Of a stretch of 64,000 bases of DNA, positions 42,108-55,463 are shown one piece after another. The DNA lies in assembly GCA_031275395.1 (NCBI GenBank), contig JAISOU010000061.1, forward strand, positions 1 to 64,000, given 5' to 3'. Position 1 is the stretch's first letter. Each line of letters starts with the position of its first letter. The notes under the pieces are model-generated. The model was not told the DNA's origin, did not search any database, and was given only the letters and a program-made list of their open reading frames with translations. Position numbers and translations under genes: made by a program. Source of the stretch: Helicobacteraceae bacterium (GTDB taxonomy: Bacteria > Campylobacterota > Campylobacteria > Campylobacterales > SZUA-545).

Positions 42108-42251
42108 ATTTACAGGTTTGTTGTAATCGACCACATAGGCTTTATTCCGTCAATCTAATTTTCTTTGCTACTTTTGCCTTTATCCAAAGAAAAGTCGTTC
42201 GCAAAGCAAATAACTCCGTAGCAAAATCGTAGAAAATGTTTCTGTTAAATC
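42108..42251. other. Non-coding spacer downstream of the five-gene operon
   Basis: AT-rich DNA between the inverted repeat and the end of the radical-SAM gene. Only a weak AGAAA-ATG-TTTCT hairpin (42231-42243) is visible 8 bp after the radical-SAM stop; no gene or strong terminator is seen. Confidence 0.4.
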
Positions 42252-42803
42252 CTATACCTTATCGCCAGTTATAAATAGTCCGTTAGAAACATTTATTTCC
42301 ACGCGCTTTGGGCGCGAAGCGTAAAACCATTGCTCGCGCGAACGATAGCGGTTGGTAATAAATATTAAACGCTGGTTTGTAGAACCTACGAGGTTGCGCT
42401 TATCGTCGAGTTTGTTTTGTTCAAAACCGCCGTCAATTACAAGATCGACCTCGCATTTCAAGTCTGCGGGGACTTCGCATTCTTGTTTTCCAGTGAACAA
42501 TATCACGCCTAAACCAGTTGTCCGAATAACCCTTGATAGCTCCGTAAGTCCTTGCTGAAGCGTTGGTTCGCCGCCTAAATAGGTTACGCCCTCAATGTCG
42601 AATCGCTTCTTTGCCGCTGCAATTATCAAAAGTAATTGGTCGATCGTAAGAATATGCGCGGGCTTTAATTCGAGTAATTTTGGATTGCAACAACCCTTAC
42701 AACGCTTGTAGCAACCTTGAAACCATATTGCGAGCCGCTTTCCTGGACCCTCCGCTTCGGTGCATTTATTTATGCATGCGACGTTAAATTTAGGCGTTTT
42801 CAA
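42252..42803 (-). CDS. Radical SAM activase-like protein (NrdG/4Fe-4S single-cluster type)
   Basis: A small radical SAM protein related to anaerobic ribonucleotide reductase activase. CX3CX2C (GCYKRCKGC) binds the 4Fe-4S cluster, followed by the glycine-rich TYLGGEPTLQQG. It has no extra ferredoxin domain. The frame is open from 42839 (195 aa), overlapping the ClpB-like gene by 50 bp; TTG at 42803 has GGA at suitable spacing and gives 183 aa, so I prefer it. No glycyl-radical enzyme is encoded nearby. As last gene of the five-gene operon it may modify one of the other products by radical chemistry. Confidence 0.8.
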   Translation of the reverse strand: MKTPKFNVACINKCTEAEGPGKRLAIWFQGCYKRCKGCCNPKLLELKPAHILTIDQLLLIIAAAKKRFDIEGVTYLGGEPTLQQGLTELSRVIRTTGLGVILFTGKQECEVPADLKCEVDLVIDGGFEQNKLDDKRNLVGSTNQRLIFITNRYRSREQWFYASRPKRVEINVSNGLFITGDKV

Positions 42804-44622
42804 ATTCAAATTCCAGATCGCCCTTATCCGTTCGCGCAATTATTTTCGCGCCGCGATAGTCCGGAAGGTCGCGCTTATGCTCAAACAGAAAAAGCGCGAG
42901 TCCGTCGAGTAATTTATCGTTTATCGCGTTCAAAATATCGCGTCCGCCTTTGGTAATATCCGCGTCGCTAAGAATGTGTTCAACGAATTTCAACTCGTCC
43001 TTGAACTCCAAGTCAAGGCGGTATTTTTCTTTAATGGCATCCTTTATTGGCTTTAGTTTCGATTTCGCGATTTTAATCATAAACTCTCTATCGCGTATGA
43101 AGTTAAACGGAACAACATTGTTGTAGCCTATTCTGCCGAGTATTTCAGGACGCTTTATTTCCTTGTCAAAGTAGTTCCTGACTATGCGGATAAACTCTGC
43201 CGTCGTTTCCTTATTGCTCCCCGTCGCGATCACTTCACCCGCGCCAAGGTTCGACGTGAATATGATAACGCTCTCAGAAAAATAGACTGTTTCGCCCTTG
43301 CTGTCTGTAAGCCGCCCGTCCTCTAAAATCTGCAAAAAAATATCGAGGATACGCGGATTAGGTTTCGCCGCTTTTTCTATTTCATCAAACAAAATAACGC
43401 TGAATGGCTTCTCTTTTATGGCGTTTGTAAGTTGCCCGCCTTCCTCGTAACCTACATATCCGGGAGGCGCGCCGATTAGCTTTTGATCGCTGTTTTCCTG
43501 CGCGTATTCGCTCATATCAAAGCGTATGCACGCTTGCTCGTCGCCGAACAGAAATTTTGCAAGCGCTTTGCTAAGTTCCGTCTTGCCCACGCCGGTAGGT
43601 CCAACGAAAAACAACACGCCTTTGGGCATTGAACGGCTACTCGTCTTGTGCATTCCCGTCAAACCCATATAGGCTTTAACGACGACCTTTTCTATTTTCT
43701 TGATTGCCTCGTCCTGCCCGACTACGCGCTCGGCGAGCTCTTCCTTTATACGCTCAACCTTTTCGTGGTCGAGTTTTTCCCACGGGTTATCCTTTTCGCC
43801 GTATTTGAAAAGCCAGAATAACTTTTCAAACGTTAGTTTGTCTTCTTTACGCGAAAGCCGCGCCATTTGTATAATCTCGCGATTAGTGAAGTCGTCGAGC
43901 ATATCGACATATTCGCTCTTTTTATCGCAGTTCAAAAGCGTTTCGCCCGATTTTAATTTTACGTCAAAACCGTTTTCTATTCTTTCGAGCAATGTCTCGC
44001 GCTCCTCCCTGTCTGGTCTGCTAAGCGTAATCGTACTAACTTCCGGGTTGCCTTGGTAGAACGAAATCGGGAACATAGCGAGTTTATTCGCAATGATGAT
44101 TACCGTGCTTTCATTTTTATCAGACGAACTGTAATCGACTTTTTTATCCTTTATCGCTTTGCTTAAAAGCGTTAAATGTTGCCGTTCGTCCTCCGTAAAT
44201 CCGTTCGTTCCAAACAGGTAATCAGCCCAATTTAGGACGAACGCAATCTTGCGGTTTTTGTTTGTCAAGTTTTTAAAGACGATATTGAAAATCTCGGCGG
44301 GCGTTTTGAATTGTCCGCTTCCAGTATTTTTTTGCAACGCGGCGGCTTTCGGTTCGTCGTCAATGGAATAATCATCGCCCGATACTTCGTTCGTTTCGGT
44401 TATTTTCAAATGCGTTGTGTCGCCGTCTATGCCGTCCACCCTATCCCAATACAAAACGTCGTCGTAATCCATGCCGCGTAGCGTTTGCATAAGGTATTCC
44501 TTAATACTCACAATATTGTTGTTCTTGCCAAGATAAACGTCGCCGACGTTACCGTCTAGAATGACGCAACGCTTAATTCCGACCTCGCGTTTTAACCTAT
44601 TAAAATTCGATGTAAGCGCCAT
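42790..44622 (-). CDS. ClpB/ClpA-like AAA+ unfoldase with degenerate N-terminal module
   Basis: A 610-residue protein with two AAA-like halves. The N-terminal half (about 1-260) looks AAA-like (IAFVLNWADYLF at a Walker B position, LSRPDREERETLLERI as a lid) but lacks a P-loop (LDGNVGDVYLGKN). The C-terminal half is a Clp D2-type motor: Walker A GPTGVGKTE (about 340), pore loop GYVGYEEGG, Walker B ILFDEIEK (about 411), sensor FTSNLGA and sensor-2 GGRDIL. It should unfold or remodel a protein using ATP. It lacks the ClpP-binding and M-domain signatures I would look for. It is fourth in the operon, 9 bases after the coiled-coil gene. Confidence 0.85.
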   Translation of the reverse strand: MALTSNFNRLKREVGIKRCVILDGNVGDVYLGKNNNIVSIKEYLMQTLRGMDYDDVLYWDRVDGIDGDTTHLKITETNEVSGDDYSIDDEPKAAALQKNTGSGQFKTPAEIFNIVFKNLTNKNRKIAFVLNWADYLFGTNGFTEDERQHLTLLSKAIKDKKVDYSSSDKNESTVIIIANKLAMFPISFYQGNPEVSTITLSRPDREERETLLERIENGFDVKLKSGETLLNCDKKSEYVDMLDDFTNREIIQMARLSRKEDKLTFEKLFWLFKYGEKDNPWEKLDHEKVERIKEELAERVVGQDEAIKKIEKVVVKAYMGLTGMHKTSSRSMPKGVLFFVGPTGVGKTELSKALAKFLFGDEQACIRFDMSEYAQENSDQKLIGAPPGYVGYEEGGQLTNAIKEKPFSVILFDEIEKAAKPNPRILDIFLQILEDGRLTDSKGETVYFSESVIIFTSNLGAGEVIATGSNKETTAEFIRIVRNYFDKEIKRPEILGRIGYNNVVPFNFIRDREFMIKIAKSKLKPIKDAIKEKYRLDLEFKDELKFVEHILSDADITKGGRDILNAINDKLLDGLALFLFEHKRDLPDYRGAKIIARTDKGDLEFEFENA

Positions 44623-44631
44623 AGCCTTTTA

Positions 44632-45756
44632 CTACTCCTTGTTTGTTTTTGTTTTTATTTGTTGATATTTTTGCGTTGAAATCTTGTCGGGGTTAGACCA
44701 TATTTCTTGCGTTGCGGTTACCTTTATGCCGTAGATATCCTCTAGGTCTTGCATAAATGGCTGTATGTCGTTTTGGCAGGCTTGTCCCTCATATCCGTCA
44801 AAGCGGTATATGAATTTTCCGTCTAACATAACGCGAAACTCCGCTCGCTCGCCGCTTGCCTTTTGAGCTATCATAACGACCTCGTTCTTTTCCTTTTGGA
44901 GTTTAATATTTTTTCTGTCAACAATAAATCCTTTACTTTCTATGCATTCCATTACAACTTTCAAGGTCTTTTTTCTGACGGCTTCTCCAATAAGCTCCTC
45001 CGTTGCTTTTTTGCGTATCTCGGCGATTTGGTCTCTTGCGTCCGATGTTTCAGTTGTCATAACGGCGGCTATTGTTCCCTCGTCGAGTTTAGCCGCTCGC
45101 ATTTCCGCCTCAATTCCCGCTACAATTTTCTTACGCTCGACTTTGAAATAGTTGTCCGCGCCCGCTTGCAACTTGCTTTCGGCAATCGCCTTTATTTCCT
45201 CGAACGTTCTTGCGGCGTTCCTATTGTCGAGGTATTCAAGGTAGACAAAGCCCTTTAACGCCTCATCGGCGAGCGCGTTAAGTTTCGCGGCAAAATCTTC
45301 GCTCATAGCGATGGTACCGCTTGCGCGAAGCCTCATATCACGGCTATGCGCGGCTATCTTGTTTTGCAACAACCCGTTAAGCAAAGTCTCGTAACGCGCT
45401 ATTTCGTCGGTTGTAAGCTTGTTTGTCTCGTTTGACAGCGCTTGCGCCGCCAACACGACTGCGCGCTCGTTCGTCAATTCGCCGCGCACAAACTCTGAGT
45501 TAATGCGAACCTTCCCTTTAGTCGCTATTGCGTCCGATTGTTTTACAATTTCGTCAATTTTTGCCCGTAGGGACGCCTGGCGCTTTTTAAGCGCGCGCTT
45601 CATGCCCGCCGTTTCGTCGCCCTGCAAACTTTGCGAGGTTTCGTCGATTCGGCTAAGCAACTCGTCTATTTGGCAAAGTTGCTTAGCCGCAACCTCGCAA
45701 ATGCTACGGCATTCAATGGATATAGCTTCATAATTTATAACGACTTGATGGCTCAT
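44632..45756 (-). CDS. Coiled-coil protein of the five-gene operon, unknown function
   Basis: A 374-residue protein. The first two-thirds is charged and helical with coiled-coil character (about 20-75 and 170-260). The C-terminal 100 residues form a distinct alpha/beta domain (VVMIAQKASGERAEFRVML, FDGYEGQAC, FMQDLEDIYGIKV). I do not recognise the family. The frame opens at 45819, but ATG 45756 overlaps the upstream TGA (ATGA), giving 374 aa, and is preferred. Tight spacing to the HEPN-like gene before and the Clp-like gene after suggests a partner or adaptor of the unfoldase. Confidence 0.75.
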   Translation of the reverse strand: MSHQVVINYEAISIECRSICEVAAKQLCQIDELLSRIDETSQSLQGDETAGMKRALKKRQASLRAKIDEIVKQSDAIATKGKVRINSEFVRGELTNERAVVLAAQALSNETNKLTTDEIARYETLLNGLLQNKIAAHSRDMRLRASGTIAMSEDFAAKLNALADEALKGFVYLEYLDNRNAARTFEEIKAIAESKLQAGADNYFKVERKKIVAGIEAEMRAAKLDEGTIAAVMTTETSDARDQIAEIRKKATEELIGEAVRKKTLKVVMECIESKGFIVDRKNIKLQKEKNEVVMIAQKASGERAEFRVMLDGKFIYRFDGYEGQACQNDIQPFMQDLEDIYGIKVTATQEIWSNPDKISTQKYQQIKTKTNKE

Positions 45757-47999
45757 TTCTGATCCGCCTTTTTGTCGACGGGCGCGCTTTCCGCTATGGA
45801 AAAAACTGTATCCGCCCATTTGCTAATCTTTATTATATCAAACGTGAGTTGAGTTTCGGTCGGGTTTGGGTGTAGCAGTTTATTGCGAAATTTGCGGAGT
45901 TCATATAAGGCGTTCGCCTCGCTTTCCGTAATTATTTTTTCTTTTTTTGCGCTACCTATTTTTTCTGATATTTTCAAATTATCGCCTTTTTCAATCCCTA
46001 AGCGTTTGCCGAGAATGTATTCAAGGCGGACGACCATACCGCTGATTGCCGTGCGCCAATCTCCCGTATTTATCTTAGAGCGAATATATTTTTCATCTAT
46101 TTTTTCGGGACTGTTCGAAGCGTTACGTTCAATTATAAGATAGTCGAATACTGGTTGCATAATCGCTTCATATTTTGCAAGTTCATCATAGCCGCTGGAC
46201 GCAAAGAATGAATATTTTTTTGCGCTATTTTTGAGCCTTGCCTTAAACATTCTATAATCGTCAATAAACTTGTCGATGTTATAGTTTTTACGAAACGCGT
46301 ATTCAATTGTATTACGTATGCCCAAACTGTCTTTTAGATCGTTAAAATTTTTCGACAAGGCCGCAAAATCGTCGGATATTTTACTTTTTTCAAGTTCGGT
46401 TTCACCCGCAAGAATTTTACCGATATAAACCTCAATGACGTTTGCGACCGATAGCGATGCATTCTCAGAATAGCCCGCGTCTGTCAGAAGGTTAAATAGC
46501 TTTATTTTTGGAAGTTTGTCGAGCTTCTTGGCGAACGCGAGTAATAACTCGTTTTCATCTGGTTTTCGTAACCCGTTAAGCCTCTTTGCAAGTCTCGCGG
46601 TATAACTGGCGTTCTCCTCGGTCATATTGGCAATTAACTCGTTATAAATCTCGTTTGCATACTGCTCAGCCGTCGCTTGCCATTGCGGAATGCTTGCGTA
46701 GATGTCGTTTGCCGTAAGCAATATTTCGACCCGTTTTGCTCTATCATCCGTCGCCTTTATTTTCGCGGTAATATATCTCGCGGTAAAATTTGCGTCTTCC
46801 AAAAGCTCATAAACGGTTTTTATTAATTTTGCATATTCGATTAAAAATGCCGCCGCAATGCATTCGCCGAATATTGCTTTAATAACTTTGCTTTTTTCTT
46901 CGTCGCCATAAAGTTGTTCTGTCAATAGGCTAACGCTTACGGGCTTATTTAGAACGCGTTCGGTAAGCGTTATTTTTGTCGCGGCGTAAAACTTCATTTC
47001 CTTTGGATCTATCGTAATAAACGACCAGTCGGGGGATATTGCATCCGCCGCCATATTTATTATCTTTCCGCTTTCAAGCGCAATTTCAGTATTGTCGCGC
47101 TTTATGTTGATTTTATCCTTGCTACGAGTAATAAGTAGCTTTACGGGGCGTTTGATTTGCTTTTCATATTCTTCTGGCAAATATACCGCCGAAAGGTTCT
47201 TGAACTCTGCAAAGCTTTTTACATTTTTTGCGGGAACGCTGAACTTAAATTTATTTTTTGCCGCAAGCTCGCGTTCAAGCATATCGGGCGTAAAATATTT
47301 TTTGTAGAAAGCCTCCGCTCCCGTAGTTTTAATTCTAACCTCCATACCGTCTTCGTCGACGCGCAGTACGAGACTTCCCTCTTCCTTTGTTACAACATCC
47401 TCGCGTTCCACAATATCGTATTCAAGGACTCTTTCCTCTTTTTGCAAACCCGCGCTTCTCGCGTTATCAATCAAATATTCTTGTAGTCCAGTAAAGTCGG
47501 TTTCTACTTGCTGCATAAACCCCGCGGCGTAGCAACTCGACTGTTCTAATGCCATACATTTCGGAGCATTAAATAAAAATTCAAACGTCAAAGGGTTATA
47601 GTAAACCGTCAATTCCTTAGCTTTTTTCTCGCCCGTTAGAATTGCGCCTTCGCGGAACATTCGTTCGCCATTAGACGTAAATTCAAAATTGCCAATTATG
47701 TATTCATCAAACCATTCGCGGTCGAAACGGTTGCGGTCGTCATAGTTGTTGGACGAAAATTGAAGTATTTCGCGAGAGAGCAAAAGCTCTATCTCGTCTA
47801 TGAAAATAAACTGTAAGTCATCGGGAACGCCGAAGAGCTTCAATATACTAGCCAACTTTTCTTTGCGGTCTTGCGCTTCTTTAATTAGAGTGAGAATAAT
47901 ATAGCCCACGCCCGACGGTTTTCGAACTTCTGCGTATTTTAGATTAACCTTCAGCTTTATCAGCGGAAACGGGCATGAAGTAGTTATCGTTTTTTCCAC
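45753..47999 (-). CDS. Large protein with C-terminal HEPN-like RNxxxH motif
   Basis: A 748-residue protein with no recognisable N-terminal domain. The C-terminal 130 residues are helical and carry RNKLLHP (Arg705, His710 from the GTG start), matching the RX4-6H motif with polar residue after Arg that marks HEPN nucleases; the helical run WRTAISGMVVRLEYILGK before it fits a HEPN bundle. HEPN domains are metal-independent RNases in toxin-antitoxin and defence systems. The frame opens at a TTG at 48017; GTG 47999 sits behind GAGGAG in the helicase end and is preferred. It is second in the operon. Confidence 0.7.
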   Translation of the reverse strand: MEKTITTSCPFPLIKLKVNLKYAEVRKPSGVGYIILTLIKEAQDRKEKLASILKLFGVPDDLQFIFIDEIELLLSREILQFSSNNYDDRNRFDREWFDEYIIGNFEFTSNGERMFREGAILTGEKKAKELTVYYNPLTFEFLFNAPKCMALEQSSCYAAGFMQQVETDFTGLQEYLIDNARSAGLQKEERVLEYDIVEREDVVTKEEGSLVLRVDEDGMEVRIKTTGAEAFYKKYFTPDMLERELAAKNKFKFSVPAKNVKSFAEFKNLSAVYLPEEYEKQIKRPVKLLITRSKDKINIKRDNTEIALESGKIINMAADAISPDWSFITIDPKEMKFYAATKITLTERVLNKPVSVSLLTEQLYGDEEKSKVIKAIFGECIAAAFLIEYAKLIKTVYELLEDANFTARYITAKIKATDDRAKRVEILLTANDIYASIPQWQATAEQYANEIYNELIANMTEENASYTARLAKRLNGLRKPDENELLLAFAKKLDKLPKIKLFNLLTDAGYSENASLSVANVIEVYIGKILAGETELEKSKISDDFAALSKNFNDLKDSLGIRNTIEYAFRKNYNIDKFIDDYRMFKARLKNSAKKYSFFASSGYDELAKYEAIMQPVFDYLIIERNASNSPEKIDEKYIRSKINTGDWRTAISGMVVRLEYILGKRLGIEKGDNLKISEKIGSAKKEKIITESEANALYELRKFRNKLLHPNPTETQLTFDIIKISKWADTVFSIAESAPVDKKADQK

Positions 48000-48000
48000 G

Positions 48001-51000
48001 TTATCTGTTCTCCTCAAGAATATCGCTTGTTTTGAGTAATGATCCGTGTGTCAAAATCGTTGTTATTATCTCATGGTAAATCGGGTATGCCTTGCGATCT
48101 AGCGCTTTATTTCCGCTCATATCTGGCAAGTCAATTTTCGCGCTCGATAAAAAGTCTTTTGCTCCGACAATAACGAGCAACCGCCTTGCGCGCGAAAGCG
48201 CGACGTTTATTCGCTCAAACTTTTTCACAAATTCCGCGCGCGTTCCTTGTCTATATTTTGGTGCAGGATTCCTTACCATTGAAACAAAGATAATATCGCG
48301 TTCGTCGCCCTGAAAATCATCAACCGTGCTGACAATAAAACGTTCATCGTGCAATTCGCAAATGTTTTTTAACCTGCCAATTTTCTTGAGTTTTAACTTT
48401 ATAAGCTTTGCTTGCTCGCCATAGGTGCAAATAATACCCATGCTTCTGCGCGTATCCTTGCCGCGAGTTTTGTCTACTTCAAACCCGCCGACGCGTCCGT
48501 AGGCTTCGTCAATTTTCCTTGCAAGCTCGACGACAACTCTTGCTTCCGTTTCATTAGCGGCGGAAGAGCCGTCGCCGAACTTCTCATACGAGTCGCTGCA
48601 ATCGACAAAATAGATATGCTTGTCGATTTCAATTATTGATTTGCCGTTCTTTCCCTTTATATGCAAGCCGTGTTGTTTTTGGTCGTTTTGGTTGGGCGCG
48701 CCGAGTTCCAGACTGTCGCGCCCCGCGCTATCGCCGTAAAAGTGATTGAACACTTTCATAATATCGCCGTGGCAACGATATTGCTTTGTTAGCGTAACGC
48801 GCAATCTATCGGGAACGCTTTCGAACAAAGTTTTGAAAAAGCACTCCTCGTATAAAGCCGTGTATTCTTCGTTCTTGAGCTTATCGATCATATTCGGGTC
48901 TAAATCCTCGAAGTCGTCTTTTTTCATATGGCGAAGGTCATACATGGGCGGCAATTGCCTATGATCGCCCACGAGAATAACTGTTTTGCCATAAAGTATT
49001 GGTATCAATAAATCAATGAAACTTGACTTGCTGACCTCGTCTATTATGACCACATCTATACCTTGCCTCTTTATATCTAAATCGTCGAGAGCGTATTTTT
49101 TGAGCGAGTCCATCGAGGCTGCCCTAAAGTTATCGCGGCTTGTGCAAGTTAAACCAAACACGTTCGCGTTTTCAAATAACTTTTTTGTATATGCCTCGCG
49201 GTCGACTTCAATAGCGTCGTCGCTTTGAAGGTTATGCAGGAATTTCAATATGCGCTCGTACATAGGGATTTTCTTCTTATTTTCCGATTCGCGCGCCGCG
49301 AAATTTTGCTCTAGGTCGCGCCATTTAGTCTCTATTATTTCGAGCGCGGCGGTTATATCCTCATAAGGCTCTACTATGTCGAAATCCTCGAAAAACTTCG
49401 TTATCTTATTTTTCAAGCCGCTTTCTATCGCCTTATAACTCTCGTAATCGCCGTTTTCTTTTTCGGTTTTAGCCTCGTTGTATTTCTCGCGGATTTTAAT
49501 TTTAAGGTTGCTTACTTTCGTTTCCTTTTCGTCATATTCTTTCGCCGCGTTATCGATTAGCTCGCCGATTTGAGTACGCGACTTGTCGATAAAATCTTGT
49601 AATTCGCCTCTGATTTTCAAAAACGTATTTGCAAGCGCGCCGAGCGTTTCAGGGTTTAGCTCGCTCTTATTTACAACTTTGGCAATCGAAAGACGCGATA
49701 TATCAACGCTCGCGCTTTCTTTTGCCGCCTTGATTTCTTTTCCAACGGCGATAAGATCGCCTTGCGCCCGCTCAAAATCCGCCTCTTTGCCCTTGATGAT
49801 TTCATCAGTGTCGGGGTCGCGCAAATCGGCGAGTTGTTTTTTGATTTTTGCGCGTTTTGCTTCCAAAGCCATAAGCGCGGAATTATTGATAAGCGACGCA
49901 ATTTCCTCTTTTACTTTGCCAATGTCCGCCCTCAAAACAAACGACAACGTTTCTACTGCCCGTTCTAACGCGGGATAATTCGCTAAATGGTTGAGAAGCG
50001 TCTCGCGAAACTTTTTTATTTCCTCGTCGTCTTCCTCGTTTAAGGTTAGATTTTCAATATTGCGAAGTCTGCGCGACAACCTTTCCTTTTCATCCCGCAG
50101 GTTGCAAAGCTGTTCGCGCTCCAAATCGTATCTTTCCGCAAGCGACGTTTCTTCGCGTTTTATGCGTTCAAGCGTTCTGTCTACGTCTTGAATGCGCGAT
50201 TTCTCGCGAGTAAGCTTTTGATAGTCTAAGTTTAACTCGTTGAATTTCTCGTGAAACTTTTCCTTGTAATCGCTAAAATGCTTAAATATTTCAACCTCTT
50301 TGCGTAATCGGTCGCTTATGTTTATATAGAAATTATCCACTAAACGCTCAGGCGAATAAAGGTTGGCTTCTTGCTTCGCTTGCGACGGGATAAGCCGTAG
50401 CGGGCGAATTTCTGGAATTTTAGGCAGCCGCTCAAAAACGTTGTCTATCGCCTTGTGCGTTTCGCTCGAAATTAAAATACGCTTGCCGCGTTTTACAAAT
50501 TGAGCCGCAATTTCGGCTATGACCTCCGTTTTGCCCGTGCCTGGAGGTCCTTGCAACAAAAATATACTTTCGCTTGCTATCGCTTTGCTAACAGCTTCCT
50601 TTTGCTTTTCGTTCAGGCGCTGCGAGAAAAAGTCGATTTCAGGGGCCGCCGCGCCCTCTGCGTTTGCGAGTTCATTCGGCGCGAATAGGTATGTTGACAA
50701 AAACGGATTCTTTACATAACCGCCAAAGAAACTCTTTAGTGCATTTTTTTGTCGGAGGATTTTACTTTTTTCTTTTACTTGATTAGGTTTAAGAACTTTC
50801 GGCGTATATTTTTTAATGCATTCATTTATTCCATCGACAGTATCATTTGCTCGCAGTTTGAAATATATGTAATAGCGACGAATTGTATCGTTCTCTTTCA
50901 TATCAGCTTTTTTGGCGGCGAGTTCATCCGCGTTCTTGCGCTTCGCTTCGCTCTTTTCTTTTTCGATTTGCGGCGCTTGGCGCTCGCCGATAATGAGTTC

Positions 51001-52581
51001 TGACTCGCTTATATTGCGGCGTAGCTTTTCCTCGCGCGTTGCTCTAAGGCTCGCTTCCTTTTGCGCGACGAGCTTTTTGTTTCGCGTTTCATATAAAGCG
51101 CGCAAAGAAACCGTTTCCTTCTGGCGCGCCATTTCCGCCGTAAAACTCGCAAGCTCAGAGGCGAGTTCCGCCTCTAACCGTCCAACTTCGACGGCGACCT
51201 CTTTATCTGTTTTCTTGTCTTTATTTTTCTTGACGGCGGCAATTCGCTCGCCGTATTGCCGCTTTACTTTCTCCGCCCGCGCCCTAACCGCATCCTCTTT
51301 TGCTTTAACTTGCGCGGCGTAATCGCTGCGAATCGCGCCGTCCTTATTTTCAGCGACATCGCGATCAAAACTCATCGCAAGATTGTTTGCGTACTCCGTC
51401 AATGCCGCATTATCCGCGCGCGTCAATTCCTCCGCGCGCGTGATTATATATGCGTTTACGCGTTCTTTCAGAGCGGCGGCATAGCGGCTGCTGATTTCTG
51501 CGAGCGTTGCTTTGAGGTTGCCTGCAAAATTTGCTTCGACTTTTGTATAGTCGGGTTCTATGTCTTTTAAGCAAAACTTATAACGCTCGTCTACCGAAAC
51601 GAAATGCGCGGCTTTTTCGTCGGCCTCGTTTACAAGGATTATATCTGAACGCGTGAAGCGTTTTAGCATCTGCTCAAACGCGGGCGTTTTCGCCTCATTG
51701 CCTACCTCTGTAAAAAGCTCTTTTTTATTTTTATCGACCGTAACGCGAACAATATCAAACGGTTCGCTGTTTTCAAACCGCTCTGTAACGACCACTAATT
51801 CGTCTTTTTCGCGGATTTGGTCGATGCCGTCTAAAATATAAGCATCGTATTTTTCAGGTTGGTAATCGAGCCGTGAAACAACATAAACCGTTATCGCTTT
51901 CGCCTCGTCAAATGGAACTACTCCATTACCCTGTTGTTCAAGATAATACATGCGGAAATCTATGTAATCGCGCCACTTATAGTATGTCTTTAATACCGCC
52001 TGTGGGTCGGAAACCGTATAATAACGTTCGCACATTTCAAGCATTAAATCCCGCGTTATCGCTGATGGCTTTTCGTTTGAAACGAAGCCGTAATCTGGAA
52101 CCGTAAACGTACTGCCGTTTGCCGTAATTGACCTATTGCGAAACGCGCAAGCCGCAATCGCGCAAATAGCTTTCTCGCCGCGCTTATAAATCGAGCCGTC
52201 TATAAACTCGAAGCCCTTAACGTTCAATTCGCCGTATTTCATCGAAACGTTGCCTATCAAAATAATTTCAAGTCCATTCGGTAAAATTTGCTCTGATGCG
52301 GCGTTTCTCGTTGCGCGAATAACAATGTTATTAAAAAACTTTGCCTCCGCATCCTCGTTGCCTTCACGGATGAAATCAGGCATCAAGATATAGTAATCTC
52401 TCTGCTCGCCAGCTGGAAAGCATATCTGTATGAAGCGCTCATACTCCTCAAAACGCCTCAACTGCGGATAGCGCGCTGTTAGTTCCCTGTATTGCTCTTT
52501 CAGAGGCTTATTGTAAAAGTCCTGAATGTAATCGCTCCCATTGTCGCCGTTCCTAGTAAAGTTCAATAACAAATATGCCAC
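48001..52581 (-). CDS. Giant SF1 (Upf1/Dna2-like) helicase with coiled-coil insertions
   Basis: A 1526-residue protein. The N-terminal 380 residues are of unknown fold, followed by a long charged coiled coil (about 380-570). The SF1B core starts at LNEKQKEAVSKAI, with Walker A GPPGTGKTE (about 675), a second coiled-coil insertion (about 770-1090), Walker B VVIIDEVSKSS (about 1180), GDHRQLPPM, motif IV/V region KQYRCHGDIM (about 1270), STVDDFQGDERD (about 1430) and VALSRARRLLVIVG (about 1465). All helicase motifs appear intact. GTG start behind AAGGAG; TATAAT lies 30 bp upstream. It is the first gene of the operon. It could act on DNA, RNA or RNP. Confidence 0.88.
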   Translation of the reverse strand: MAYLLLNFTRNGDNGSDYIQDFYNKPLKEQYRELTARYPQLRRFEEYERFIQICFPAGEQRDYYILMPDFIREGNEDAEAKFFNNIVIRATRNAASEQILPNGLEIILIGNVSMKYGELNVKGFEFIDGSIYKRGEKAICAIAACAFRNRSITANGSTFTVPDYGFVSNEKPSAITRDLMLEMCERYYTVSDPQAVLKTYYKWRDYIDFRMYYLEQQGNGVVPFDEAKAITVYVVSRLDYQPEKYDAYILDGIDQIREKDELVVVTERFENSEPFDIVRVTVDKNKKELFTEVGNEAKTPAFEQMLKRFTRSDIILVNEADEKAAHFVSVDERYKFCLKDIEPDYTKVEANFAGNLKATLAEISSRYAAALKERVNAYIITRAEELTRADNAALTEYANNLAMSFDRDVAENKDGAIRSDYAAQVKAKEDAVRARAEKVKRQYGERIAAVKKNKDKKTDKEVAVEVGRLEAELASELASFTAEMARQKETVSLRALYETRNKKLVAQKEASLRATREEKLRRNISESELIIGERQAPQIEKEKSEAKRKNADELAAKKADMKENDTIRRYYIYFKLRANDTVDGINECIKKYTPKVLKPNQVKEKSKILRQKNALKSFFGGYVKNPFLSTYLFAPNELANAEGAAAPEIDFFSQRLNEKQKEAVSKAIASESIFLLQGPPGTGKTEVIAEIAAQFVKRGKRILISSETHKAIDNVFERLPKIPEIRPLRLIPSQAKQEANLYSPERLVDNFYINISDRLRKEVEIFKHFSDYKEKFHEKFNELNLDYQKLTREKSRIQDVDRTLERIKREETSLAERYDLEREQLCNLRDEKERLSRRLRNIENLTLNEEDDEEIKKFRETLLNHLANYPALERAVETLSFVLRADIGKVKEEIASLINNSALMALEAKRAKIKKQLADLRDPDTDEIIKGKEADFERAQGDLIAVGKEIKAAKESASVDISRLSIAKVVNKSELNPETLGALANTFLKIRGELQDFIDKSRTQIGELIDNAAKEYDEKETKVSNLKIKIREKYNEAKTEKENGDYESYKAIESGLKNKITKFFEDFDIVEPYEDITAALEIIETKWRDLEQNFAARESENKKKIPMYERILKFLHNLQSDDAIEVDREAYTKKLFENANVFGLTCTSRDNFRAASMDSLKKYALDDLDIKRQGIDVVIIDEVSKSSFIDLLIPILYGKTVILVGDHRQLPPMYDLRHMKKDDFEDLDPNMIDKLKNEEYTALYEECFFKTLFESVPDRLRVTLTKQYRCHGDIMKVFNHFYGDSAGRDSLELGAPNQNDQKQHGLHIKGKNGKSIIEIDKHIYFVDCSDSYEKFGDGSSAANETEARVVVELARKIDEAYGRVGGFEVDKTRGKDTRRSMGIICTYGEQAKLIKLKLKKIGRLKNICELHDERFIVSTVDDFQGDERDIIFVSMVRNPAPKYRQGTRAEFVKKFERINVALSRARRLLVIVGAKDFLSSAKIDLPDMSGNKALDRKAYPIYHEIITTILTHGSLLKTSDILEENR

Positions 52582-52629
52582 CGATCTATCTCCTTATGCG
52601 TTGCGTGATTATATATTTTATTTCTATAC
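52582..52629 (-). promoter_or_regulatory. Promoter and RBS of the five-gene operon
   Basis: On the minus strand TATAAT (52613-52608) lies in AT-rich DNA 26 bp before the GTG start at 52581; AAGGAG precedes the GTG with 8-base spacing. No other promoter-like site is seen between the five genes, which overlap or nearly touch, so this likely drives the whole unit. Confidence 0.55.
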
Positions 52630-52863
52630 TTAACTGAACGCTTTTTGAAACTTTTCCAAGAAAAGTTTGCAGCGTTCGGATGTGTTTGCTTGAAATACGC
52701 CAAATATCGACGCAAGCAAACAAGCCGCCGTTCTGCCGCTAAAGGCGAGCAAACAGTCTATCTCCTGCGAGATCGACGCGTCGGCGCGCTTAGTGGGTAT
52801 CTGCGCCCTAACAAAATGGCATAAGTAGCGTTTTATGCGCGTTGTTAGCGCACAGCAAGCCAA
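52630..52863 (-). CDS. Possible 77-residue ORF or gene remnant
   Basis: The frame from TTG 52863 to 52630 reads as plausible protein (helical, Cys-containing, ending LFLEKFQKAFS) and is not a shadow of another gene except for 19 bp at the polyvalent gene end. It has no ATG and no ribosome site. It may be a displaced 3' piece of the neighbouring decayed element. Confidence 0.3.
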   Translation of the reverse strand: MACCALTTRIKRYLCHFVRAQIPTKRADASISQEIDCLLAFSGRTAACLLASIFGVFQANTSERCKLFLEKFQKAFS

Positions 52864-55463
52864 AGTCGTTTTTTATTTGCCGTCCTACGCAATCGCTTCG
52901 CCATGTTTTGCGTCTGGAAGGCAAACTCTTTATTCGCGTCGTCCCATAAGCCGCCGTATTTTTCGGCGATTTTCTCTTGCGCGGCGATTACGTCGCGGCG
53001 CAATACGGGCGGTTTAACCCAAGCCGCGCCGTCGTTTTCGGCGATCAGGTTAAAGCCGTCCAACGTCGTTTCGGTCGCTTCGTTAGTTTCGATCGCCGCC
53101 TTCGACGACCTCTCGTAAGACGAGCCGCCCTTGTTTTTTAATTTTATCAGATCGGCTCGCGGCGCGTCGTTTATTTTCGCCGCCGCCTCAAACTCGGCTG
53201 GCGTTACGTCGATCGCTTCGCCCGCCGCGTTTCGTAGTTGCGGTTTCTCGACGGCGTAAAAATCGGGATCGCGATAAATCCCCGCCGCAAGATCGTTTTG
53301 ACGCGCCCGCTCGTCGATAACCCGCGACATAAAAGGCTCGTATCCCTGCTCGATATAGTTGCGCATTCGGGCGCGAGTCGCTAACGCTTGCTTATCTTCG
53401 GGCGTTAGCGCCTCTAACTCTCTGCGGGCGTTGTTTAGATCGGCTCGCGTTGTTTCATAATCGCCTTCCGCGATCAATCGCTCCGTATTGGCGACTTTCG
53501 CTTCGGCGGCTGCGCGTAACGACGGCTCGATCTTTTTTTCAATGTTCGCTATATCGCTTCGGAGGGCGTTAAGTTCCCCTTCAAGCTCTTTTTCGCCGTT
53601 CGCGAGCCGCCGAGAAAGAAACTTTTCGCTCATTTTCGCGTCGTCTAACGCCCGTTTGTAAGCAAACGACGGATCGCGTTTAATCTCGTTAGCTAACTGC
53701 CTATCGACTAACGCGCTATAAAAACTATATCCGTCGACCGTCCTTTTGGTCGAGGGTATTCCGACGGGCGTTTTCGCGTCTTTAACGCCGTTAGCGGCTA
53801 GAAAATCTCTAGCCGCTTCATAATCGCCGTCGCCAAGCGCCGCTCTTTCTTGACTTTTCGCCGCGTCGATCTCTTTGGCGCGTTTAACGGGGTCGATCTT
53901 GCCGCGATTCCACGCTTTTAGCGCGTCAAGGTCGAGATTAGCGAATAGTTTAGCCGTTTGCTCCGTTACGCCCTCGTCTATTAGCCGCTTGTATATCTCA
54001 TTAGACAACGCGGCTTGCTCTTTAGCGTTCTTTAGATAGTCGTCATAACTAGAGGTCAGCGCGTAGTTAAGGCGACCTTCGTTTAGCTTTAACGCCTCCG
54101 CGTACTCCGTCGCTATTTTCTCGCTCGCGCCGTCGGCTATTAGTCTTTGTCTTAAGATTTCGGCTTTGGCTAACGGATTATTTATTTCAATGGCAGGATC
54201 AACCCCCGCCGCTTTTAGTTTCTCGTCGATATTGGTTAGCGCGAATTTATTTTTTGGAACGTAGCCGCCGTTTTCATAAGGAACAAAGAAGCCTTTTTCA
54301 ATCGCCGCTTGCTTATCGAATAACAGCGTCCACTTATAATCTCTTAGCCGTTCTATATCCGCTAGGCTTAGTTTGTCTTTGGCTAACAGGCGATTTAAGC
54401 CGCTAACGGATAGATTGGGATAATATACGATCCTATCGGCTACGCTTCTGCCGTCTGGAAGCGCGGTAAAGCCTTTGGCTTTCGCCCAGCTTGGTATTTG
54501 ACTTTCGGGCGGGCGATCTGGTATAGTTTCGCTCTGGGCAGGTGCGGCAGAACCCTCCCGATTTGACGCGGGAGCAAGAGTTGGCGACCTGTCCTTTCCG
54601 CTGTTAGTCCTATCCTTCATTAGCCTCAACATATCCTCTGTTAGAGAACCGTTGTGTTTATACATATCAAAGAAAGCGATGTTTCCTCTGCCTGTTCTTA
54701 CTTCCTCGACGATAATCGCGTAGCCGTTTATCTGTTTGCCATAGACGATAGCGGGCAGATTGTATCGCCTTGTATGCGAATAAATCTTGAAGTCGTGATC
54801 TTTCACGATTTCGGGATATTTCGCTATATCATCGAGCGTAACGGCAACGCCGCCAAATTGCGCTTCCCTTTTTGGATCGCCGTGTTTGTTTAGCGTATGG
54901 CGTATTTGGTTGCCGTCGATCGCGCGCGTAATTTGCGAAGGCTTAAAGGTTACGCTCTCGCCAAATTGATTCTTGAACGCCGCCGCTATTTCGTTCGCTT
55001 CGTCGGCGGTTACTTCGGCGATATGGATTTTTCCGTCGGCTTGCGATAAACGCTTCACGGCTTCGACGTTTAGCGGCTCGATAGTAATTTCTGGCGCTTG
55101 CGTCGCGATCGCCGCTGGTTCTTTGCCTGCCGTCCTCGCGCTAACGGTTTTAGGAGTCGTCGCTCCGTTCGTTAAAGGGCGCGAAATCTCGCTTGTATCT
55201 AACGCTCTGGGCGCTTGTTCGCCTATCAATCGGAAGTTAGGCTTATATTCGATTTGCGCTCTTGGTTCGTATCCCAGCGTTCTTTGCGCTTCGATAACCG
55301 CCTCGTCTATCGTTTGCTTCGCCTCTTGCGCCGTAGCGTTTGTCGGCAAGCTCGCAATGGCTTCGTCGGTCGATTGAAACATTAAGCGCAAAGCGGCAAT
55401 GTCGCTAGGGCTTATTCCGCCTCCGCCTCCATTAGCTACTTTCGTTTGAAGGCGCTTAAACAA
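52845..55463 (-). pseudogene. 5'-truncated polyvalent mobile-element protein with PBECR-like nuclease domain
   Basis: An 872-codon frame whose only start is a TTG without ribosome site. The same frame stays open and protein-like for 54 more codons to a TAG at 55626-55628, with no start codon, so the true 5' end is missing. Residues about 180-270 (IRHTLNKHGDPKRE, VAVTLDDIAKYPEIV, YAIIVEEVRTGRGN) look like the Barnase/EndoU/ColicinE5-D/RelE-like nuclease domains (DUF3519-like) of phage and conjugative-element polyvalent proteins. The rest is low-complexity, Ala/Arg/Glu-rich and helical with no clear domain. GATC density is closer to the core than to the neighbouring operon. Confidence 0.65.

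Follow-up and report, generated by a model that had tools for sequence, protein, structure and literature searches.

What might explain a tightly packed set of five genes that joins a helicase, a predicted ribonuclease (RNase), a coiled-coil protein, a ClpB-like ATPase and a small radical S-adenosylmethionine (radical-SAM) protein? The set lies on the minus strand at positions 42252-52581 of the first 64,000 nucleotides (here called the window) of contig JAISOU010000061.1, a 64.6 kb piece of the 2.08 Mb assembly GCA_031275395.1 of a Helicobacteraceae bacterium. An original prediction, made by reading the sequence alone, had described five minus-strand genes that overlap or are separated by no more than about 10 bp, as the open reading frames (ORFs) confirm. 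It had proposed an operon in which a nucleic-acid-sensing helicase controls a HEPN RNase, with an AAA+ motor to release it and a radical-SAM protein to modify a component. The observations in that prediction prove mostly right and its interpretation is partly supported. That the operon is a coherent, mobile system whose effector is an RNase is very likely, and we conclude that its five genes probably make up an intracellular conflict system that spreads horizontally and most likely acts against phages.

One unit recurring across bacteria

Are the five genes together only in this genome? Because queries with the AAA+ protein returned ordinary ClpB, which swamped the scans, the radical-SAM alignment was taken as bait for genome scanning; the coiled-coil alignment diverged too far to serve for pattern scanning. 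The scan gave 80 loci, and at 41 of the loci examined with purpose-built hidden Markov models (HMMs) all five genes are present in the same order, from helicase through nuclease, coiled-coil protein and AAA+ protein to radical-SAM protein. These loci span at least six phyla (gamma-, beta- and alphaproteobacteria, Campylobacterota, Bacillota, Actinomycetota, Planctomycetota and Synergistota), which answers the call of the original prediction for a test of co-occurrence across phyla. One of the 41, from Helicobacter cynogastricus, retains only a remnant of the AAA+ gene; a Lentisphaerota copy of the five genes is nearly identical to a Zoogloea copy and may be contamination; and copies cut by contig ends are found in Cloacimonadota and Myxococcota.

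Since the radical-SAM gene had been the bait, co-occurrence was retested from the other genes. When 397 genomes of the phylum were searched, 8 matched the coiled-coil profile and 8 the AAA+ family, with 7 common to both; the remaining coiled-coil genome is that in which most of the AAA+ gene has been lost. The profile of the gene 2 N-terminus finds 4 genomes, all inside the coiled-coil set. Homologues lying mostly apart from each other, which the original prediction had named as a refutation, are thus not what these genomes hold. In a tblastn search of 72,556 plasmid records, gene 3 occurs in 10 and gene 2 in 9 of the same 10; full-length homologues of the AAA+ query occur in 12 records, and the loci behind these matches show the same five-gene order in Polaromonas, Photobacterium, Moellerella, Acinetobacter and Leisingera. 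Copies are very patchily distributed, in about 2% of the phylum's genomes. The unit formed by the five genes is conserved and recurrent.

The unit is also horizontally mobile as a block. The fabF-accA DNA of a sister species (G005) and that of the window are 94.7% identical. The operon copy of the sister species (L012) matches the window at 73% over 9.9 kb and 86% over the last 545 bp by blastn, and sits elsewhere in its genome, beside pst/pho genes, with unrelated flanks on both sides. The homology, at 42250..52627 of the window (minus strand), covers exactly the five genes. This coincidence of borders, the different site, and an identity of 73% against about 95% for nearby housekeeping DNA argue that the five genes move together. 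The second site also excludes a conserved housekeeping neighbourhood, another outcome that would have counted against the original prediction. Flanking genes at other loci encode phage integrases, rve integrases, IstB and IS66 proteins and members of transposase families. Some copies are broken: in Helicobacter cynogastricus (L110/L194), most of gene 4 is gone, gene 3 runs on in frame into what is left of its end and the helicase is split in two, the picture of a decaying copy, and in genome G179 the helicase is in four pieces.

An exchangeable RNase domain in gene 2

Gene 2 (45753..48017, minus strand) encodes 754 aa, with its conserved start probably at a GTG at 47999. The starts given here for genes 2 and 3 come from alignment to the sister copy and from an invariant 'MS' start. 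In 36 of 42 gene 2 proteins the C-terminus is a PIN domain, recognised by a profile built here (Pfam PIN_4 matches 35), and the four catalytic acidic positions are kept in 34-36 of these 36. The proteins of the window and of its two nearest relatives, the sister species and L013 (from IMG/VR), have no PIN match. These three are the HEPN-type copies; their C-terminus is a helical domain in which the catalytic R-polar-x(3-4)-H motif reads RNKLLH, RNNLTH and RNSLIH, respectively, and Pfam DUF4145 is matched in the first two. In the window, the DUF4145/HEPN domain (PF13643) lies at 45831..46007 (minus strand), with RNKLLH (R711-H716) at 45870-45887. Its score for the protein is 20.6 bits (E 4.6e-4), just under the cut-off of 23.1; over the matched stretch the window protein reaches 24.3 bits and the sister copy 29.7, above the cut-off. 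A full-length model of gene 2 (mean predicted local distance difference test, pLDDT, 71) has predicted C-terminal helices at 642-743. A scan of viral contigs with the HEPN-type protein found no relatives.

Are the two types versions of one protein? An HMM built only from the N-termini of PIN-type proteins matches the window protein (47523..47990, minus strand) at 1.6e-11, the sister copy at 1.2e-12 and L013 at 9.7e-9, and matched no unrelated ORF. The N-terminal domains of the two types also match each other, profile against profile, at E 7.8e-4. In the tree of the AAA+ proteins, the HEPN-type copies are one clade (support 100/100) nested among PIN types, and for this reason we place a single HEPN swap in the sample, with PIN probably ancestral. 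Gene 2 is thus a conserved N-terminal domain joined to an exchangeable, predicted RNase domain, PIN as a rule and HEPN here. PIN and HEPN are unrelated folds that have RNA cleavage as their common feature. That two unrelated RNase folds interchange points to RNA cutting as the output, and judged by sequence an RNase domain in gene 2 is very probable. The replacement of PIN by HEPN in one conserved protein would be direct evolutionary evidence for that output. The HEPN effector of the original prediction therefore stands as an RNase, and as HEPN in this genome; HEPN is the rare form in the family at large.

The coiled-coil, AAA+ and radical-SAM proteins

Gene 3 (44632..45819, minus strand; 395 aa, conserved start probably ATG at 45756) encodes a coiled-coil protein that belongs to no Pfam family; its homologues stand in operon order at about 50 loci. 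An AlphaFold2 model (mean pLDDT 73) has long helices followed by an alpha+beta domain (residues ~278-378; 44686..44988, minus strand) with the invariant motifs F-x2-Y-x-G-x2-C and W-x-N-P. This domain matches DUF2997 weakly, in 3 of 31 homologues (best E 0.014), and its top Foldseek match is the AdoMetDC-like domain of spermine synthase (probability 1.00, E 3e-3, low template-modelling score). We treat both likenesses as leads rather than tests.

Gene 4 (42790..44622, minus strand; 610 aa) is a ClpB-D2-like AAA+ protein (AAA_2, 4.5e-49). Residues 1-270 are specific to the family and are followed by a single ATPase at ~285-585, whose fold is nearest to ClpB D2 and which has the pore loop GYVG at 388-391; the pore loop and Walker motifs are kept in 40 of 41 homologues. 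A motif search finds no evident ClpP-docking tripeptide in gene 4. Of the 853 profile positions of the ClpB model TIGR03346, only 552-834 are matched, with 253 bits against a cut-off of 1232. The ClpB-like motor of the original prediction survives as a D2-like ATPase; a ClpB chaperone is rejected, given the single ATPase, the unlike N-terminal region and the score far under the cut-off.

The radical-SAM protein of gene 5 (42252..42839, minus strand; 195 aa; Fer4_12, 2e-22) carries CX3CX2CC at residues 43-51, and this motif and GGEP are conserved in 41 of 41 homologues. Its nearest solved structure is the PFL activase (4.5e-7). It scores 78.6 bits with the NrdG model TIGR02491 (cut-off 126.1) and 53.9 with TIGR02493 (cut-off 231.8). 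The original prediction had called it an activase. This identity, NrdG included, is rejected, as the protein falls under every NrdG and activase cut-off and none of the five operon proteins is a glycyl-radical enzyme on which such an activase could act.

The core with other partners

Genes 3, 4 and 5 make up a reusable core, which is found beside other partners as well. In L111, L112 and L130, from Lentisphaerota and Planctomycetota, they are followed by genes for a vWA protein, a PP2C phosphatase, a kinase and an SF1 (superfamily 1) helicase, and these kinase-type copies are nested within the RNase-type AAA+ tree. In the Helicobacter-like L196, L197 and L199, the core has neither helicase nor RNase gene and is preceded by an uncharacterised ORF of 594-741 aa. 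On Aristaeella and Rhizobium plasmids, AAA+ and radical-SAM genes lie beside kinase and helicase genes. Related radical-SAM genes adjoin DUF2997 in L175, L014 and L016, and in L016 DUF1257 as well.

Several further genes were seen around the core. L111, L112 and L130 also carry a gene of ~440-700 aa, of which the L111 version has a wHTH-PRTase-associated match. Large proteins with an Hsp70-like GIDFGTTSS stretch are encoded near the core in L199. The IMG/VR loci L014 and L016 combine the related radical-SAM gene with an SF1 helicase, a 722 aa protein and a possible nuclease of phospholipase D (PLD) type, seen by eye and without a Pfam match. In L106 (~10.7-14.4 kb) and L109 (Pseudoalteromonas, Colwellia), the same minus-strand four-gene module, encoding proteins of 359, 235 and 279 aa and a 343 aa radical-SAM protein, adjoins the operon. 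A thymidylate-kinase-like gene lies downstream of the radical-SAM gene, directly in an Acinetobacter plasmid and nearby in a Lachnospiraceae assembly (L006, L150).

The helicase

Gene 1 (48001..52581, minus strand) encodes an SF1 helicase of 1526 aa, similar to Upf1, IGHMBP2 and the Mokosh protein MkoA (Pfam AAA_11, 7e-30; AAA_12, 8e-34). A long insertion separates its two RecA-like halves. The Walker A motif GPPGTGKT (residues 678-685; 50527..50550, minus strand) is kept at 93% or more over the 41 loci, and Walker A, DEVSK and GDHRQLPP are present in about 40 of 41 homologues. The best PADLOC model is MkoA, a partial match of 298 bits for which no cut-off is given, and across the operon helicases this model scores 298-387 bits; TIGR00376 scores 164 bits. 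The PLuB model NCBIfam NF040671 gives 146 bits for the window protein and 147-162 for its relatives, against a cut-off of 999. The nearest solved structures are SMUBP-2, DNA2, SEN1 and UPF1.

The surroundings of the operon

On the left the operon is bordered by fabF and accA, and on the right by genes for a PBECR3-domain protein and an alpha-2-macroglobulin. G+C is 0.40-0.48 over the operon and ~0.50-0.54 in most of the flanks. The assembly as a whole contains no 16S gene. The protein that adjoins the operon (52845-55463, minus strand; 872 aa) contains the PBECR3 phage-type nuclease domain and lies outside the transferred block; other large proteins from the genus contain pieces related to it, and the protein is a mosaic of phage origin. 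The original prediction had placed the operon next to mobile-element remnants, and what is seen there is this neighbour and the drop in G+C. A search of the window found no tRNA, and no integrase was identified directly beside the operon. The single upstream promoter of the original prediction was not borne out: a consensus scan of the gap at 52582-52844 found no sigma-70-type promoter pair, and an isolated TATAAT (52608-52613, minus strand), ~26 bases upstream of gene 1, is at best a candidate -10 element.

A probable conflict system

How might the five proteins act together? The SF1 helicase would be the sensor, binding and translocating on foreign or abnormal RNA or DNA. The ClpB-like single-ring motor would remodel the coiled-coil adaptor or the gene 2 protein by threading, with the result that the RNase is released or assembled, and the RNase would cleave RNA and halt phage production or the host cell. 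The radical-SAM enzyme would put a modification that the system requires for competence on the core, most likely on the C-terminal domain of gene 3 or on the AAA+ protein. We place its target in the core, as the radical-SAM gene stays with genes 3 and 4 even where the helicase and RNase genes are missing or others stand in for them. The order of action from helicase to AAA+ core to RNase is tentative, and that the radical-SAM enzyme acts on the core is likewise a possibility held with reserve.

A role in defence seems rather likely from the genomic context: the patchy distribution, carriage on plasmids and islands, the Mokosh-like helicase and single matches of flanking genes to defence models all suggest it. 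Several results weigh on the other side. The HEPN score of the window protein sits at the Pfam threshold, the gene 2 proteins of L155 and L195 have no recognised nuclease domain, and a fold search with the full-length gene 2 model returned helical-repeat noise and no informative match. Among 50,697 phage records there is no relative of gene 3, and among 5,426 E. coli genomes no match of operon length, by which the system would be rare in well-studied hosts. Proximity to known defence genes, which the original prediction had asked about, is partly seen: flanking genes give single matches to the DISARM DrmD, CARF/Csx1, Cas6 and MADS models, a count with no control set behind it. Flanking matches to viperin (pVip) were rejected as evidence of co-location with defence genes, since that model also matches 14 of 14 control genomes.

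A wider and rather doubtful reading is that the operon belongs to a modular immune class, in which one AAA+/adaptor core, matured by the radical-SAM enzyme through modification of the DUF2997-like domain of the adaptor, would be the common activation engine for helicase plus PIN, helicase plus HEPN, or vWA, PP2C and kinase plus helicase. If true, it would be the first radical-SAM protein modification to control an RNase effector in bacterial immunity. The reusable core, composed of the adaptor, the AAA+ unfoldase and the radical-SAM enzyme, links RNase-based with kinase-based conflict systems, and opens to test in a laboratory strain the part that a radical-SAM enzyme and an unfoldase play in such systems of prokaryotes.

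Could the operon instead serve the cell without any part in defence? An Upf1-like helicase and a PIN or HEPN nuclease might cut aberrant RNA or RNA of stalled translation under stress, with the ClpB-like motor clearing the attached aggregates. This would be reminiscent of UPF1 acting with SMG6, and would suit the structural neighbours of the helicase, the prevalence of PIN as the nuclease, the ClpB D2 likeness of the AAA+ protein, and the alternative kinase, PP2C and vWA context, which resembles signalling. Patchiness, plasmid carriage, transfer as a block, decay (L110, L193) and exchange of the RNase fold are traits of conflict systems, not of maintenance, and they make RNA surveillance improbable.

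It is a smaller chance still that the operon is a divergent Mokosh subtype, in which the effector beside the COG1112-type helicase has changed. Among PADLOC models MkoA fits the operon helicases best, and the core has a version with kinase and helicase, yet the MkoA similarity covers the SF1 core that is common to many helicases, genes 2 and 3 have no PADLOC match, and the AAA+ and radical-SAM proteins match no Mokosh model.

A toxin-antitoxin-like module that stabilises plasmids or islands, with the RNase as toxin and the AAA+ core as antidote, is very improbable. At ~10 kb and five genes, with a helicase of 1300-1600 aa that all complete loci keep, the operon is far above known addiction modules, and no small labile antitoxin is seen, even though plasmid and island carriage, RNase domains of toxin type and tight linkage would fit. 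Chance co-location of unrelated accessory genes in a single genome, which the window by itself could not exclude, is refuted by the 41 same-order loci, the co-occurrence in the 397 genomes and in plasmids, and the block transfer, and its probability is negligible. The conflict system remains the preferred reading.

Comparison with known systems

The five-gene set matches no named system in PADLOC-DB 2023 or NCBIfam 2026, as the original prediction had supposed for BREX, DISARM, Zorya, Druantia and Wadjet, among others. In PADLOC-DB there is no match for genes 2 and 3 of the window, genes 2 and 3 of L005 or gene 2 of L121; gene 3 of L121 has a marginal match to LmuB (E 0.083). A literature search found no description of the five-gene system; subscription papers and preprints lay mostly outside this search, and an earlier description is possible. 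The operon thus adds a system from at least six phyla that has no name in the family libraries or the literature searched.

Its parts resemble known proteins to differing degrees. Gene 4 shares with ClpB/Hsp104 (and ClpA/ClpC) a D2-like ATPase, the Walker motifs and the GYVG pore loop, and differs in having one ring, no D1 or middle domain, a 270-residue N-terminus of its own and a place in a mobile operon. Gene 5 is small like the NrdG and PFL activases and shares their CX3CX2C, but has an extra conserved cysteine (CX3CX2CC) and scores below the curated cut-offs. Synechocystis has a duf2997-ycf35-fed7 cluster (PMC4284462). Clusters of DUF2997, DUF1257 (Ycf35) and ferredoxin or radical-SAM genes in cyanobacteria, planctomycetes and actinobacteria recall the related radical-SAM genes found here beside DUF2997 and DUF1257, although gene 2 is absent from them and the link to gene 3 is weak.

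The vWA-PP2C-kinase triads beside genes 3-4-5 in L111, L112 and L130, absent from the window, we take to be of the TerY-P type. Mokosh pairs the MkoA helicase with the MkoB kinase in type I and has the helicase-PLD protein MkoC in type II. The likeness lies in the window helicase, which scores best to MkoA, and in the three loci where kinase and SF1 helicase genes accompany the core; the difference lies in the window operon, which has neither a kinase nor a PLD domain and instead has a PIN/HEPN-type protein and the core of genes 3-5, both foreign to Mokosh. The operon may therefore work like a helicase-plus-nuclease defence of the Mokosh kind, yet by its domains it fails as a member of Mokosh itself.

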